IMG/VR virus record: IMGVR_UViG_3300021963_000752
Location: 1-21,551 of that record
Length of the DNA: 21,551 bases
Reading direction: 5' to 3' (one strand)
Origin: a virus
Positions 15,449 through 21,298 of the stretch are shown here, in pieces (position 1 is the first letter of the stretch; every line of letters begins with the position of its first letter). The notes under the pieces were generated by a model, which did no database searches, was not told the DNA's origin, and saw only the letters and a program-made list of their open reading frames with translations. The position numbers and the translations under genes are program-made.

Positions 15449-15952
15449 ATGCTGTCTCTGTTCTCAACCCTCGGTGGCCTGCTGATCTCAGGCCTTCCCA
15501 AGCTCCTGGACTTCTTCCAAAACAAAGCGGACCAGAAGCATGAGCTGGCGCTGGCCAGGGTCCAGACAGAACGCGAGCTCGAGCTGGCGGCCAAGGGCTT
15601 TGCGGCCCAGCAGAGGGTCGAGGAGATCCGCACCGATCAGATCGCCATGCAGACCGACGCGCAGATGACGGTGGCCGCGTATGACCACGACAAGAAGGTT
15701 CTGGAGCGAGCCAGCACCTGGGTCGTCAACTTCGTCGGCACTGTGCGGCCTGTGGTGACCTACATCTTTGTGCTCGAGCTGTGTGCGATCAACGCCTGGA
15801 TCGCGTTCTACATCTACGAGCACCCAAACCTGATCGGCAGCATTGACGACCTGATCCGCGCCTCCGACATCATCTTCAGCAGCGATGAGATGGCCATGCT
15901 TGGCGGGATCATCGGCTTCTGGTTTGGCTCACGCAGCTGGAGCAAGAAGTGA
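15449..15952 (+). CDS. Holin, 3TM (gene-transfer-agent type) family
   Basis: This 167-residue protein starts at ATG 15449, with GGA eight bases upstream. It has an N-terminal hydrophobic helix (MLSLFSTLGGLLISGLPKLL), a charged helical cytoplasmic region (about 25-85, HELALARVQTERELELAAKG), a second pair of hydrophobic segments around VNFVGTVRPVVTYIFVLELC and AINAWIAFYIY, and a third near the end (MAMLGGIIGFWFGSRSWSKK). The R-P-V-V-T-Y and G-F-W-F-G-S-R-x-x-x-K end is what I recognise from the Holin_3TM family. It would form membrane lesions that let the soluble lysozyme reach the cell wall. The gene is directly followed by that lysozyme, whose GTG start overlaps its TGA stop. Confidence 0.75.
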   Translation: MLSLFSTLGGLLISGLPKLLDFFQNKADQKHELALARVQTERELELAAKGFAAQQRVEEIRTDQIAMQTDAQMTVAAYDHDKKVLERASTWVVNFVGTVRPVVTYIFVLELCAINAWIAFYIYEHPNLIGSIDDLIRASDIIFSSDEMAMLGGIIGFWFGSRSWSKK

Positions 15953-16476
15953 AGTTGAGCAAGGCCGGTGCAGATCTCATGCACCAGTACGAGGGCTGCA
16001 GAAACCGGCCCTACCTATGCCCCGCGCACATCTGGACGATTGGCTGGGGCCATGTGCTCTACCAGGAGCAGATCAGGCTGCCAATGGTGCGGGTGAAGGA
16101 GATTCACAGCCCCGTGATCCGCAAGGAATACCCACTGAGACCGGAGGACAGCCGTGTTTGGAGTCAACAAGAGATCGATGCGCTATTCGCAAGTGACGTC
16201 GCTAGTTTTGAGCGTGGTGTTTTACGACTTGCTCCCAATCTGCTTGGCAATCAAGGCGCTTTCGACGCGTGTACCAGCTTTGCGTTCAATGCCGGGCTGG
16301 GAAACTTTCAGCGTTCCACTATTCGGATGAAGATCGGGCGCCAGGACTGGGAGGGGGCCGCGGAGGCCTTCATGCAGTGGACCAGGGGAGGCGGCAAAGA
16401 ATTGCCGGGCCTGGTCAAACGGCGCAAAGCTGAGAAGGCTTTGTTCCTCAGCTCGATGGAAACCGAGGAAGAATAA
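15949..16476 (+). CDS. Endolysin, glycoside hydrolase family 24 lysozyme
   Basis: The gene starts at GTG 15949, overlapping the holin stop (GTGA), and ends at TAA 16474-16476. The 175-residue enzyme would cut the beta-1,4 bond between N-acetylmuramic acid and N-acetylglucosamine. The active-site pattern is visible: E15, then C24 eight residues later and T30 after five more (YEGCRNRPYLCPAHIWTIGW-GH). The usual middle residue is Asp (T4 lysozyme E11, D20, T26); Cys at this place occurs in some phage lysozymes. Later motifs (FDACTSFAFNAGLGNFQRST; QWTRGGGKELPGLVKRRKAE) are typical. Residues about 36-68 form a longer insert than in many relatives. There is no signal or signal-anchor sequence, so it depends on the holin. 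Confidence 0.88.
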   Translation: MKLSKAGADLMHQYEGCRNRPYLCPAHIWTIGWGHVLYQEQIRLPMVRVKEIHSPVIRKEYPLRPEDSRVWSQQEIDALFASDVASFERGVLRLAPNLLGNQGAFDACTSFAFNAGLGNFQRSTIRMKIGRQDWEGAAEAFMQWTRGGGKELPGLVKRRKAEKALFLSSMETEEE

Positions 16477-16477
16477 A

Positions 16478-16508
16478 TGTGACATTTTTGTGCCATTGAT
16501 TTGTGACA
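16478..16508 (+). promoter_or_regulatory. Candidate integrase arm-type sites, left of attP core
   Basis: TGTGACATTTTTGTG at 16478-16492 begins two bases after the lysozyme stop, and TTGTGACA lies at 16501-16508. The 15-mer recurs exactly at 16661-16675 on the far side of the core. Direct repeats flanking an att core in the same orientation are how arm-type integrase sites look. This is inferred; no binding is shown. Confidence 0.45.
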
Positions 16509-16531
16509 GAGCAGTTGCCATCTGCACCTTT

Positions 16532-16556
16532 GCCCCCGTAATTGGGGGCTTTTTTT
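16532..16556 (+). terminator. Rho-independent terminator after the lysis genes
   Basis: GCCCCC at 16532-16537 and GGGGGC at 16544-16549 form a perfect 6-bp stem with a GTAATT loop, followed by seven T (16550-16556). It closes the late + strand transcript and lies just before the attP core. Confidence 0.88.
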
Positions 16557-16566
16557 GGTAAACTCA

Positions 16567-16613
16567 GATTGTGATTCCTGTTGTCGTGGGTTCGAGCCCC
16601 ATCAGCCACCCCA
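16567..16613 (+). other. Candidate attP core: copy of the 3' half of a tRNA-His gene
   Basis: These 47 bases match the 3' half of the complete tRNA-His at 16724-16770 at 42 positions, starting at the anticodon stem-loop (GATTGTGATTCC) and ending with CCA. Homology stops abruptly at 16566. Differences (TGTTG for AGCGG, C for T, A for G) give CAGCCAC as the acceptor end, as in betaproteobacterial tRNA-His genes from memory. A tRNA 3' half with a sharp 5' edge is the classic attP core, and candidate arm sites lie on both sides. Confidence 0.65.
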
Positions 16614-16642
16614 ATAGAATCAAGGCTTTCGGCATTTCCAAG

Positions 16643-16675
16643 TTGTGATTTTTGAGTTGTTGTGACATTTTTGTG
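16643..16675 (+). promoter_or_regulatory. Candidate integrase arm-type sites, right of attP core
   Basis: TTGTGATTTTTGAG at 16643-16656 and TTGTGACATTTTTGTG at 16660-16675 are in the same orientation as the two sites left of the core. The second contains the exact 15-mer found at 16478-16492. Together they suggest P' arm sites. Confidence 0.45.
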
Positions 16676-16693
16676 TCGTAGATTCAAAGCAGC

Positions 16694-16770
16694 GGTGGCC
16701 GTAGCTCAGCTGGTAGAGCTCTGGATTGTGATTCCAGCGGTCGTGGGTTCGAGTCCCATCGGCCACCCCA
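16694..16770 (+). tRNA. tRNA-His (anticodon GTG), complete and phage-encoded
   Basis: A full 77-base cloverleaf is visible: extra G(-1) at 16694, acceptor GTGGCCG/CGGCCAC, D arm GCTC/GAGC, anticodon stem CTGGA/TCCAG with loop TTGTGAT (GTG), five-base variable loop, T arm GTGGG/CCCAT with TTCGAGT loop, discriminator C and encoded CCA. G(-1) opposite C73 is the identity mark of tRNA-His. All stems are perfect, so it appears functional. It lies six bases from the end of the convergent integrase gene. No clear promoter precedes it. Confidence 0.95.
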
Positions 16771-16776
16771 GCACCC

Positions 16777-17733
16777 TCAGAAGTTAACGCGCTCAGCAGC
16801 ATTCGCCAGGTGCTCTGGCGACAGGTGGGCGTATCGCTGCACCATCTCATGCGAGTGCCAGCCACCCAGCTCCTGGAGCACCGACAGGGGAGTGCCGGCC
16901 ATAGCGTGCCAGGACGCCCAGGTGTGGCGCAGATCATGGAAACGAAAGCCAGGCACGCCAGCGCGCTTGCAGGCGCCTGTCCAGGTGTTGGCCCAGACGC
17001 GGTCCATATCGCCCCACACGCGGCCTTTGCGGGGCTCAGGGAAGGATTCCAGCAGTGCCTTGGCCGACTTGTTCAGCGGGACCAGGATGCGCTGGCCAGC
17101 TTTGGCGTCTTCCTCGGCCACATGCACCATGCCATTGGCCAGGTCTACAGCCTCCCAGGTCAAGCCAAAAACATTCGATCTTCTCAACCCGGTGAGTAAA
17201 GCGAAACGGACTGGCATCCGATACTTTTCCGGGAGACAAGTGATCAAAACCTCGGCCTGCTCGCGTGTCAAATATGCGACGCGGCGCTTTGGCTCTGCCT
17301 CTGTTCTGAGGATAGGGGCGCGGTCAAGCCAGTCCCACTCGCGCTCAGCAGCACGCAGCATGGCGCGGATCAGGGCGCGGTAGCGGTTCCTGGTGGCGCC
17401 TGCAACCTCCTTGGGCAGCACGCTTTCAATCTTGTCTCGAGTGAGCTCAGACAGCAGCACAGTGCCTATCTTTGGGAGGAGAAACTTGATCTTGAGCTCG
17501 TCATCAGGCAGCGAGCGCTTGTGTGCGCGCTCGACCAGCCAGCGTGCGCATGCCTCCTTGAATGTCTTCTTGGGCTTCTCCTTCAAGACCCCCTCGCGCC
17601 AGAGCTCAGCCTTGCGCATGTCGTGCAGCTGCTGGGCCAGCTTCTTGTCGCCGGTCTTGAGTGATTCACGCAAACGCTTGCCATTGATCTGGACGTCCAT
17701 CCAATAGTTGTCGCCTCTGAGAATAAGTGCCAT
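16777..17733 (-). CDS. int: Tyrosine-type site-specific integrase
   Basis: The start is ATG at 17733, with AAGGAG at 17743-17748; a start at 17772 would lie inside the promoter. The 318-residue enzyme has an N-terminal arm-binding-like part (NYWMDVQINGKRLRESLKTG), a core-binding helical domain (about 57-140) and the catalytic domain. Catalytic residues are seen in order: R184 (LLTGLRRSNVFGLTW), K211 (EEDAKAGQ), H266 and R269 (FHDLRHTWASWH), W292 in the usual His/Trp position (LGGWHSHEM) and nucleophile Y301 (VQRYAHLSP). All are present, so it should be active. It would join attP to a tRNA-His gene of the host. The gene converges on the tRNA-His and lies next to the att region, the normal arrangement for tRNA integrators. 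Confidence 0.95.
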   Translation of the reverse strand: MALILRGDNYWMDVQINGKRLRESLKTGDKKLAQQLHDMRKAELWREGVLKEKPKKTFKEACARWLVERAHKRSLPDDELKIKFLLPKIGTVLLSELTRDKIESVLPKEVAGATRNRYRALIRAMLRAAEREWDWLDRAPILRTEAEPKRRVAYLTREQAEVLITCLPEKYRMPVRFALLTGLRRSNVFGLTWEAVDLANGMVHVAEEDAKAGQRILVPLNKSAKALLESFPEPRKGRVWGDMDRVWANTWTGACKRAGVPGFRFHDLRHTWASWHAMAGTPLSVLQELGGWHSHEMVQRYAHLSPEHLANAAERVNF

Positions 17734-17756
17734 TTTTTGGGACTCCTTAATTTGAT

Positions 17757-17773
17757 GTTGAGATTGTCTCAAC
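17757..17773 (-). promoter_or_regulatory. Palindromic operator candidate over the int promoter
   Basis: GTTGAGA-TTG-TCTCAAC is a perfect 7-bp inverted repeat with a three-base centre. It covers the -10 element of the predicted int promoter, so a dimeric repressor bound here would block int. The binding protein is not identified in the window. Confidence 0.5.
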
Positions 17774-18771: not shown

Positions 18772-18881
18772 AGCGCGTTCCACCCCAACATGAAGACGTA
18801 GTAAGTGGCCTTCGCAAGCAAGCCAATGATGACCAGGCTCGCGCACCACAGGCTCACATAAATGCAAACATTCTTGATCAT
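18768..18881 (-). CDS. Tiny membrane protein (37 aa) in the recombination operon
   Basis: The frame runs from ATG 18881, overlapping the TGA of the nuclease gene (ATGA), to TGA 18768-18770, which overlaps the GTG start of the HNH-like gene (GTGA). A GGAG site lies five bases before its start. It codes for MIKNVCIYVSLWCASLVIIG followed by LLAKATYYVFMLGWNAL. Nearly all of it is hydrophobic, with a basic N-terminus and one likely membrane span (about 5-23), and two cysteines. Overlaps on both ends, a good ribosome site and no alternative use of the 106-base gap make it credible. Function is unknown; membrane proteins are not expected in a DNA-recombination operon, so a host-takeover or exclusion role is possible. 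Confidence 0.55.
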   Translation of the reverse strand: MIKNVCIYVSLWCASLVIIGLLAKATYYVFMLGWNAL

Positions 18882-20065
18882 CGCGACTCCCCAAAACGTT
18901 TCATTGCCTCAACTGCTGCGCTTGTTTTGCGTCTGGCTTCTGCCTTGGTTGGGTTGTCTTTCTTAACTGGAATGTCATCAGGGTCTGTGGCCAGATCGTC
19001 AAAAATTGTTAGGAGACTTCCACTTGCAACCTTGCTGCCTGGAAACTGTTCCTTGAGCGCGGCCACTTCAGCTATCAATGAGCCAGGGCACAGTTGCAGC
19101 TCTTTGCTCGAGAAGCTCTGGCCGTAGGCTTCGATGGTTTCCTGGCCATTCACAAACGTCGCACCAGTCTCGCGGTGCTTGTATGCGATCCAGGACTCGC
19201 CGCCATCGATTGCTTCCGCGTAGGGGATCAGCGACGGGATCATCAGGTGAGCTTCACAGCCAGCGCGTTGGGTCTTGTCATCGATCTGCTTTTTGTGATG
19301 GCCACAAGACCACGCTGCGTTTTCAACGGGTGAGGAATGACAGCATGTGCGACAGTTCATCTCGGCAGCCAAACCACCGTGACAGTGCTTGTGAAAGCTG
19401 CACATCTTGCAGATGTAGTAGCTTGGGTCGCGGCTCAGTGGCTCTGGTGATGCTGTCTGCTCGATCAGGTGCTGTGCGCGATCCATCAGCACTGCAAAGT
19501 GGTCCTTGTCAAAATGGACCCACTCGCAATAGACGTCGTCGTTGTTTTTGTTCACGCCCATGTACATGGCGCGATCGATCTCCATCAGCCCCATGTAAAC
19601 CGTCATCTGGTCATAGTGCTGAGGCTTTGCGCCTTGCACTTTCTTGCTGCACAGGTCATTGAATGACTTGTCGTTGTGTGTCTTGAACTCGAGCACGCAG
19701 GGTGACTTTGGCGCCTCTGGCAGACCTTTGCCAACGCCGTCGAGTGAGCCACCAAAGTGGCCATTGCAGGCCGACACGCGAAACTGATCACCAGTGTCTG
19801 GATCACGTTCCCATACAGTCGCGCCGATACCACGCAGCTCTTCGATCAGGCGTAATTCCTCGCGCTGGCCGGTGCTGAACAAGCGCAGCATGCGGCCTGA
19901 AAATTCAGGCTTGAGCGCCCAGCGCCATGTCAGCCAGATGTACCGATTGCATTGGTGGCCAATCAGAGACGCGCCCATGTGTGGGCGGTGCTCTTGTGGC
20001 TTGCTCTCGTACCACCGCACGATCGCAGTGGCCGTTGTGTGCTGTGACTCGGGCACTCGCGCCAT
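18878..20065 (-). CDS. Cas4/RecB-like PD-(D/E)XK nuclease with Fe-S cluster cysteines
   Basis: ATG at 20065 is chosen because GGGG lies six bases before it; a TTG at 20071 is poorer. The 395-residue protein has the PD-(D/E)XK nuclease pattern: D109 (FGGSLDGVG), E126 and K128 (CVLEFKTHNDKSF), and a downstream Gln motif (KPQHYDQMTVYMGL). Cys residues C39 and C219-x2-C222-x5-C228 match the 4Fe-4S signature of Cas4/AddB-type nucleases. A second set (C238-x2-C241-C242, C254, H256/H257, C270, H273) may bind zinc or another cluster. The C-terminal part is helical and Lys/Asp-rich. With Sak4-like and DUF669 neighbours, a 5'-3' or single-strand exonuclease role in phage recombination is likely. There are no CRISPR repeats here. 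Confidence 0.8.
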   Translation of the reverse strand: MARVPESQHTTATAIVRWYESKPQEHRPHMGASLIGHQCNRYIWLTWRWALKPEFSGRMLRLFSTGQREELRLIEELRGIGATVWERDPDTGDQFRVSACNGHFGGSLDGVGKGLPEAPKSPCVLEFKTHNDKSFNDLCSKKVQGAKPQHYDQMTVYMGLMEIDRAMYMGVNKNNDDVYCEWVHFDKDHFAVLMDRAQHLIEQTASPEPLSRDPSYYICKMCSFHKHCHGGLAAEMNCRTCCHSSPVENAAWSCGHHKKQIDDKTQRAGCEAHLMIPSLIPYAEAIDGGESWIAYKHRETGATFVNGQETIEAYGQSFSSKELQLCPGSLIAEVAALKEQFPGSKVASGSLLTIFDDLATDPDDIPVKKDNPTKAEARRKTSAAVEAMKRFGESR

Positions 20066-20067
20066 GA

Positions 20068-20532
20068 TCAACCCCAGGGCTTCTTAGCTGGAGCTGAGGC
20101 AACAGCAGGACGTGCTGCTGGCGCTGCTTTAGGTGCTGGCGCGCCTGCACTCGCATAGCCCATGACGCGGTTGCGTGTTGGATCTTTCTTGTCGATCTCC
20201 ACATGCGCAACAAACGGCTGGTCATGCAGCTGCTCTGTCTCGGTCATGTCTTCGATGCCAATGGCATAGCAAAGAGAGGCCAGGGCCGCGTTGGCAATGT
20301 CTTGCGCTGTCTTGTTTGGGTTGTCTACATTCAAGCGCTCCCAGTGGCGGCGGCCTGAGTGCTCACCGTTCAGGACGTGCATCTCCAGCTCAATGTAGTG
20401 ACCAGTGCCGGCCTGCGTTGGCTTGACGTCTGATTTGACGATCATCATTTCGTAGTCGCCTTTGGGCAGCGGCTCGAATGAGCGCGCCTGCATTGGTTCG
20501 ACAGTGGCAGCGTTGAAGTTGAATAAGGCCAT
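20068..20532 (-). CDS. DUF669 protein, putative single-strand DNA-binding protein
   Basis: ATG 20532 is chosen over an upstream start because AGGAG lies seven bases before it and the protein then opens with MALFNFNAATVEPMQARSFE. The 154-residue product follows the DUF669 pattern: the Asn-rich N-terminus, PLPKGDYEMMIVKSDVKPTQ, GTGHYIELEMHVLNGEHSGR with WERLNVDNPNK, then ANAALASLCYAIGIED. DUF669 proteins occur beside Sak4-type ATPases and are thought to bind single-stranded DNA; I rely on general knowledge here. The C-terminal 30 residues are Ala/Pro-rich and end KKPWG, a flexible tail that may contact a partner. It lies between the Sak4-like gene and the Cas4-like nuclease and would work with both. 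Confidence 0.8.
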   Translation of the reverse strand: MALFNFNAATVEPMQARSFEPLPKGDYEMMIVKSDVKPTQAGTGHYIELEMHVLNGEHSGRRHWERLNVDNPNKTAQDIANAALASLCYAIGIEDMTETEQLHDQPFVAHVEIDKKDPTRNRVMGYASAGAPAPKAAPAARPAVASAPAKKPWG

Positions 20533-20554
20533 GTGGTTTCTCCTGGTTGATGGC

Positions 20555-21298
20555 TTAGTTGTTGGCCGCAAGTGCAGCAGCGAATGCTTCCCAGCTGAGA
20601 GGCATATTCTTCAAACCGAAACGGTTCCCACCCATGTGAGCGGGGTGCGGTTCAACGTGAAGGATTCGTTCGCCCGTGGTGCGGGCCTTTGTCTCTTTAT
20701 TGCCGTAGCCGGCGTCTGATTGAGTTGTGACGACGCGGTAGTTGGCCCAGCCAATGACGTCTGCCCACTCCTGGACAAGAGCGCCAGCGCGGTCGTGCAA
20801 CTTCAATGTGTATTGGTCGTAGCCCTCATGCAGGGGAGACTCAAAGCGCTTGATCTTGTCGTGCGCGATCAAGATGATGGCCATGTTGCGTTGAGCGCGA
20901 AGAGCCTCCAGGCCTGAGAGCAACGTGCGCCACTCTTCAGCTGCAGCGATGTAGCCCTTGCCGTAACCAGGCGCCTCGATCGATGCCCACTTGTTGGCCT
21001 CGCAGACATGCTGGTGCAGCAGTGGCTCGAGCCAGTCGAGGGAATCCAGGAACACAGACTCAAAGTCGTGCTTGTCTTTGAGCAGCGTTCCTATTGCTGA
21101 ATAGACATCGGATAGCGAAGAACACAACGGAAAGGCCGAAGCATCAACCGCGTCAGCGCCGTCCTCAGTCAAGATGCCGACAGCGTTTGGCGCCTGAGAA
21201 GCAAAGGTTGTCTTGCCAATCTTGCCTGGGCCGGCAATGACAATTTTGGGTGCGCGCATGCGCTTAGTGCGCGAGATGGATGAGAGATCGAATGCCAT
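20555..21298 (-). CDS. Sak4-like recombination ATPase (RecA-fold, AAA_24)
   Basis: This 247-residue protein starts at ATG 21298 behind GAAGGG, seven bases upstream. It has a Walker A motif G23-P-G-K-I-G-K-T30, a Walker B strand ending FLDSL (D85), and a later strand with IILIAHDKIKR, the sensor-like element of this fold. The order and size match Sak4-type proteins, RecA-like ATPases of phages that assist single-strand annealing and strand exchange. The N-terminal MAFDLSSISRTKRMRAPKI and the C-terminal NRFGLKNMPLSWEAF are typical of the AAA_24 group. It is the first complete gene of the early operon as seen here and is followed by the DUF669 gene, its common partner. It would act on replicating or repaired phage DNA in the cytoplasm. 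Confidence 0.82.
   Translation of the reverse strand: MAFDLSSISRTKRMRAPKIVIAGPGKIGKTTFASQAPNAVGILTEDGADAVDASAFPLCSSLSDVYSAIGTLLKDKHDFESVFLDSLDWLEPLLHQHVCEANKWASIEAPGYGKGYIAAAEEWRTLLSGLEALRAQRNMAIILIAHDKIKRFESPLHEGYDQYTLKLHDRAGALVQEWADVIGWANYRVVTTQSDAGYGNKETKARTTGERILHVEPHPAHMGGNRFGLKNMPLSWEAFAAALAANN

Follow-up and report, generated by a model that had tools for sequence, protein, structure and literature searches.

A complete phage tRNA-His gene beside the tRNA-His-derived attP core of a P22-like integrase suggests a layout between rebuilding and replacing the host tRNA

A 21,551-base virus record from IMG/VR, analyzed here over its whole length (the window), carries the 3' half of a host tRNA-His gene and, close by, a complete tRNA-His gene of its own. 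It is probable that the window combines a classical attP, which would rebuild the host tRNA-His upon integration, with a replacement tRNA-His that would back up lysogeny, and that this "both" state is a viable intermediate. A first-pass annotation had pointed to the tRNA-His half, the nearby complete tRNA-His and the flanking repeats, and all of them were recovered in our analysis; the core at 16567-16613 and the segment at 16724-16770 form a 47-base direct repeat with 42 of 47 identical bases (89%). The latter segment had been taken for the complete tRNA-His, but it is the 3' part only of a gene that ARAGORN and Rfam place at 16695-16770.

The rightward operon ends with a lysozyme (endolysin) gene (15949-16476, plus strand; PF00959, E = 5.8e-34), and the attachment region comes next. 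On the same strand, the left arm (16478-16508) holds putative Int arm-type sites, TGTGACA at 16478, TGTGCCA at 16489 and TGTGACA at 16502, which lie at -91, -80 and -67 from the overlap region. An intrinsic terminator (16532-16549, plus strand; a stem-loop, then T7) stands directly upstream of the core, and a stem-loop resembling it is also predicted in the relative L098. The core (16567-16613, plus strand) covers tRNA-His from the anticodon stem to CCA and contains the 7-nt anticodon loop TTGTGAT (16569-16575, plus strand), the putative overlap region. The right arm (16661-16678, plus strand) has TGTGACA at 16661 and TGTGTCG at 16672, +85 and +96 after the overlap. The complete tRNA-His(GTG) (16695-16770, plus strand) is placed between these right-arm repeats and the P22-like integrase gene, ending 6 bases short of the integrase stop. 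This tyrosine integrase (16777-17772, minus strand; PF00589, E = 1.9e-24; phrog_1, E = 6.2e-66) is convergent with the tRNA and about 41% identical to P22-group integrases. The minus strand also encodes, at 18878-21298, a recombination module consisting of a Cas4-domain exonuclease, an SSB-like protein and a Sak4-like annealing protein, which could drive mosaicism among relatives.

The arm repeats share TGTGACATTTTTGTG, found at both 16478 and 16661 inside a 24-nt repeat with 88% identity, and resolve into TGTGNC(A/G) pairs spaced by 11 bp, at -91/-80 (with the third site at -67) and +85/+96 from TTGTGAT. Their positions bear out the earlier remark that they flank the core on both sides and not the complete tRNA; no TGTGNCA-type site was found on the integrase side of the complete tRNA-His. 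The left spacing of -91/-80 is kept in most related loci, and the right arm lies mostly at +62-63, +84-87 or +105-106, with two Cys loci (L275 and L280, about +78) outside these usual spacings. Since similar spacing recurs in dozens of relatives, it does not arise by chance; the right-arm values are also suggestive of strict helical phasing, which we do not claim. Comparison with 32 Burkholderiales tRNA-His genes revealed that the core is identical at 47 of 47 positions to the CAGGA-type 3' halves in L145, L149 and L165-L167, while the corresponding half of the complete copy reached 45/47 at best against the same genes. Two hallmarks of classical P22-type integration are present: a tRNA 3' half from anticodon to CCA in attP, and arm repeats on both sides at a conserved distance. 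Host identity and arm geometry together support the proposal that the half copy is attP and the repeats are arm-type sites, and the 47-nt core is almost certainly attP.

By comparing two remote relatives, we obtained a view of the junction. The contig of L305 starts inside the 5' half of a host tRNA-His gene, which runs straight into a long core, followed by a right arm and a related integrase gene; in place of this host sequence, the closely related L310 carries phage DNA. The change falls at the anticodon loop, so that the L305 junction looks, from its sequence, as expected of attL, although in a remote relative only; because no matching attR was found in the same record, the evidence does not go beyond a junction at the end of a contig. 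TTGTGAT is common to all His attP sites found by pattern (34 non-duplicate sites with a complete tRNA and 4 without), and we infer that strand exchange takes place there. In genome G259, a related integrase gene (41%) follows a complete host tRNA-His. The hosts are probably betaproteobacterial. No integrase closer than 49% was found in 399 Burkholderiales genomes, no integrase at E<=1e-85 in 398 genomes, and the attL pattern was found neither in 398 genomes nor in IMG/VR; the 398-genome attL search used the same order sample as the 399-genome integrase survey and the tRNA-His-pattern survey and is not independent of them. Likewise, integrase, attL-pattern and phage-type tRNA searches retrieved no lysogen of the close clade from these collections, which are samples.

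According to our model, the temperate phage would integrate into the anticodon loop of the host tRNA-His gene, and its 47-nt core would restore the 3' half in the classical mode. The rebuilt host gene would then be followed, about 81 nt further on and in the same direction, by the phage tRNA-His, in agreement with the roughly 80 bases predicted at first. In a matching host, the spare tRNA would not be strictly needed, because the long core restores that host's gene. Joining the window core to the 5' halves of the 32 host genes gave a fully paired tRNA in 10 cases and a mispaired one in 22, the mismatches affecting 28:42, the acceptor stem or both. In hosts whose allele departs from the core in this way, so that the rebuilt tRNA is mispaired, the spare tRNA-His may complement the defect and rescue lysogeny. 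The tRNA-His pattern had a single match in 258 of the 271 matched Burkholderiales genomes, indicating that the host gene is usually unique.

The complete tRNA-His has the appearance of a working molecule: all stems are paired, the G-1 and C73 identity bases and CCA are encoded, and Rfam scores it at 67.8 bits. The 42 loci with a phage tRNA-His reduce to nine distinct sequences, in which the acceptor and T stems vary with compensatory changes of the partner base, and G-1:C73 is kept in all nine; these observations indicate that the genes are maintained as working tRNAs. It had been noted that the acceptor end of the core resembles a betaproteobacterial host tRNA-His and that of the full copy does not. 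The first part stands, given the 47/47 match, but the second does not, as the full-copy stem GTGGCCG/CGGCCAC also occurs in the Burkholderiales hosts L151 and L152. What distinguishes the phage copies from hosts is the anticodon-stem region AGAGCYCTGGA...TCCAG: the stem is CTGGA/TCCAG in all phage copies, and CCGGA/TCCGG or CAGGA/TCCTG in most sampled hosts. The wider phage signature GGYAGAGCYCTGGATTGTGATTCCAGNNGTCG was absent from all 381 genomes of two host families and therefore marks a phage lineage. A T28-A42 pair is present in all nine phage sequences, and most sampled hosts lack it. It may have been kept so that the phage tRNA escapes the phage's own integrase, which is only a suggestion; a single origin explains the pair equally well.

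We found no sigma-70-like promoter ahead of the phage tRNA-His, so its expression would depend on read-through or on an unseen promoter. In a lysogen, transcription that starts at the host tRNA promoter could run on into the copy, which would lie on the same strand about 81 nt further along. L024-L026 have a hairpin, AACCTCA...TGAGGTTTTT, between the short core and the tRNA-His; should this be a terminator, transcription from the host promoter would be stopped short of the tRNA in these phages. Insertions of about 260-440 bases with apparent small reading frames separate the tRNA-His from the integrase gene in L013, L026, L028, L085, L088, L096 and L102, with the att-tRNA spacing unchanged.

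Relatives were collected from IMG/VR by six integrase-based searches and one DNA-pattern search. Each contig was counted once and contigs ending before the core were left out, giving about 85 classified relatives, besides unclassifiable ones (e.g., L020, L206-L209, L270, L284, L285, L290 and L291). All 38 classified short-core contigs carry a complete tRNA-His (L009-L014, L024-L026, L028, L065-L070, twenty from L085 to L136, L192 and L216). Their attP has only TTGTGAT plus TC(C/T)GG, or less, in common with the host; such a core, being the anticodon loop and part of the stem, is predicted to be unable to rebuild the host tRNA. A long His core without a complete tRNA was found in 15 contigs (L004, L008, L015, L078, L302, L303, L305, L307-L310, L313-L316), and a long core of tRNA-Cys, -Asn or -Ser without a complete tRNA in another 28. 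Eleven remote relatives found by DNA pattern (integrase identity 36-46% over longer alignments) have a long His core, arms and integrase gene and no complete tRNA. A long core together with a complete tRNA exists only in the window and the near-identical phages L005, L006 and L007, and a short core without a tRNA was not seen among the approximately 85 classified IMG/VR relatives. L216 has a remote integrase (46% to the L015 query), a core barely longer than TTGTGAT, arms that fit the +62 spacing and a complete tRNA-His bearing the phage signature. Downstream of the integrase gene, L029, L119, L120, L121 and L132 carry a tRNA-Ser(GGA) 5' half up to the anticodon loop and no 3' half, which suggests that these relatives rebuild a host tRNA from the 5' side.

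In the short-core relatives, integration would split the host tRNA-His and the phage copy would be the sole tRNA-His that could remain, since the host gene is usually single. A short core without a tRNA should make integration lethal, so a path from rebuilding only to replacing only should pass through the "both" state, which our model takes as a viable step between the classical and tRNA-dependent layouts. In the integrase trees, a long core without a tRNA is the state of those relatives whose target is another tRNA and of most remote relatives that target tRNA-His. The second tree places L008, which has the same layout, at the base of the window group; L015, also a long core without a tRNA, nests among short-core phages, and the short-core, tRNA-bearing L216 sits on a long branch. 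Although strong by number of contigs, the short-core/tRNA association offers few independent events on the tree (four pairs, three agreeing; sign test p 0.25). The trees agree with a path through the "both" state and do not prove the order. Beyond this, we tentatively consider a dual-mode system, in which the spare tRNA frees the phage from the need to match the host allele, widens the range of species lysogenized and makes it possible for attP to lose its 3' half later on; it is a plausible extension that we hold with somewhat less than even confidence.

Among the alternatives, the one that survives best is that the window acquired the tRNA cassette recently, through recombination with a short-core relative, and that the cassette is functionless there. 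L004 is a mosaic in which the core and most of the integrase gene are window-like and the part between them is L008-like and without a complete tRNA, from which it follows that the core-to-integrase cassette is exchanged by recombination; the basal position of L008, which lacks the tRNA cassette, also fits such a gain. Against this, the tRNA is intact and identical in the four window-type phages while spacer bases differ, although four sequences make this a weak argument. We regard a recent, functionless gain as unlikely, yet as a serious competitor. A second possibility is that the complete tRNA-His is a passenger or a lytic translation aid unrelated to integration, as tRNA genes are frequent in phages, the window core would be enough to rebuild the host tRNA, and two close relatives, L004 and L008, manage without a copy. 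But in all 42 loci the complete tRNA matches the attP target in isotype, points the same way and occupies the interval from right arm to integrase gene, and it accompanies every short core and, among classified long cores, only the window clade, which makes a passenger role improbable. The initial suggestion of protection against anticodon nucleases, for which phage tRNAs have been proposed (PMC10264068), found no support and is very improbable, because the published evasion signature is an anticodon-loop mutation (PMC10264068) and none of the nine phage sequences departs from the sampled hosts in the loop TTGTGAT. Finally, as the complete copy also contains TTGTGAT, one could take it for the true attP and the half for a relic of older integration; this reading can be rejected with hardly any reservation, since that copy lacks arm sites on its integrase side and matches sampled hosts at no more than 45/47, whereas the half matches at 47/47 and 15 relatives have the half only, at the same conserved arm spacing.

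The preferred reading, a rebuilding attP plus a replacement tRNA-His, can be set against known systems. The window resembles classical P22-type elements in its tRNA 3'-half core starting at the anticodon, its two-sided arm repeats and its P22-like Int, and differs from them by the spare complete target tRNA, which classical elements lack. A phage carrying a copy of its own target tRNA was first thought unusual; in fact, besides our 38 relatives with that layout, there is the precedent of tRNA-dependent lysogeny, genetically proven for mycobacteriophages by Guerrero-Bustamante and Hatfull in 2024 (PMC10865867), with the tRNA-dependent actinobacteriophages Fionnbharth, LeBron, Cain and Gaia (PMC10865867). 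Like those phages, the window has a tyrosine integrase (PF00589) with attP in a host tRNA gene. Tyrosine integrases of the P22-like type, tRNA-His and probable betaproteobacterial hosts set our system apart from that described in PMC10865867, as does its geometry: in the window group, the tRNA has a constant place, between the integrase gene and the right arm, and runs in the direction of the host gene, whereas the Fionnbharth tRNA lies in another place, where it overlaps gene 37, and has its own promoter. As defined in PMC10865867, tRNA-dependent lysogeny also entails a phage tRNA that lysogeny requires, so that its deletion gives clear plaques, and a short core, which the 38 short-core relatives have, while the window holds the whole 3' half; the window is thus a variant rather than a member, and no phage in Table 2 of PMC10865867 has both a rebuilding core and a tRNA. 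Judged by their sequences, the short-core relatives are a candidate tRNA-dependent lysogeny family with a different integrase and isotype. In Sinorhizobium meliloti, phage-related sequences are reported to replace an inactivated tRNA (PMC11476347), similar to our short-core layout in that an element-borne tRNA of similar isotype takes over; those elements belong to Alphaproteobacteria, and the passages of that report considered here do not describe a "both" state.

The replacement mechanism is therefore already known in Actinobacteria and has been reported for S. meliloti elements (PMC11476347). PMC10865867 did not settle by what route the classical mode gave rise to it, or how frequent it is outside Actinobacteria. 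Here, one integrase family shows all viable states, namely, rebuild only, both and replace only, with the predicted lethal state unseen, which makes the order of steps testable, and independence of lysogeny from the host tRNA allele is a suggested reason for a replacement tRNA. As far as our searches show, the candidate family that pairs a P22-like integrase with tRNA-His, its fixed geometry and the "both" state are new with respect to these systems.
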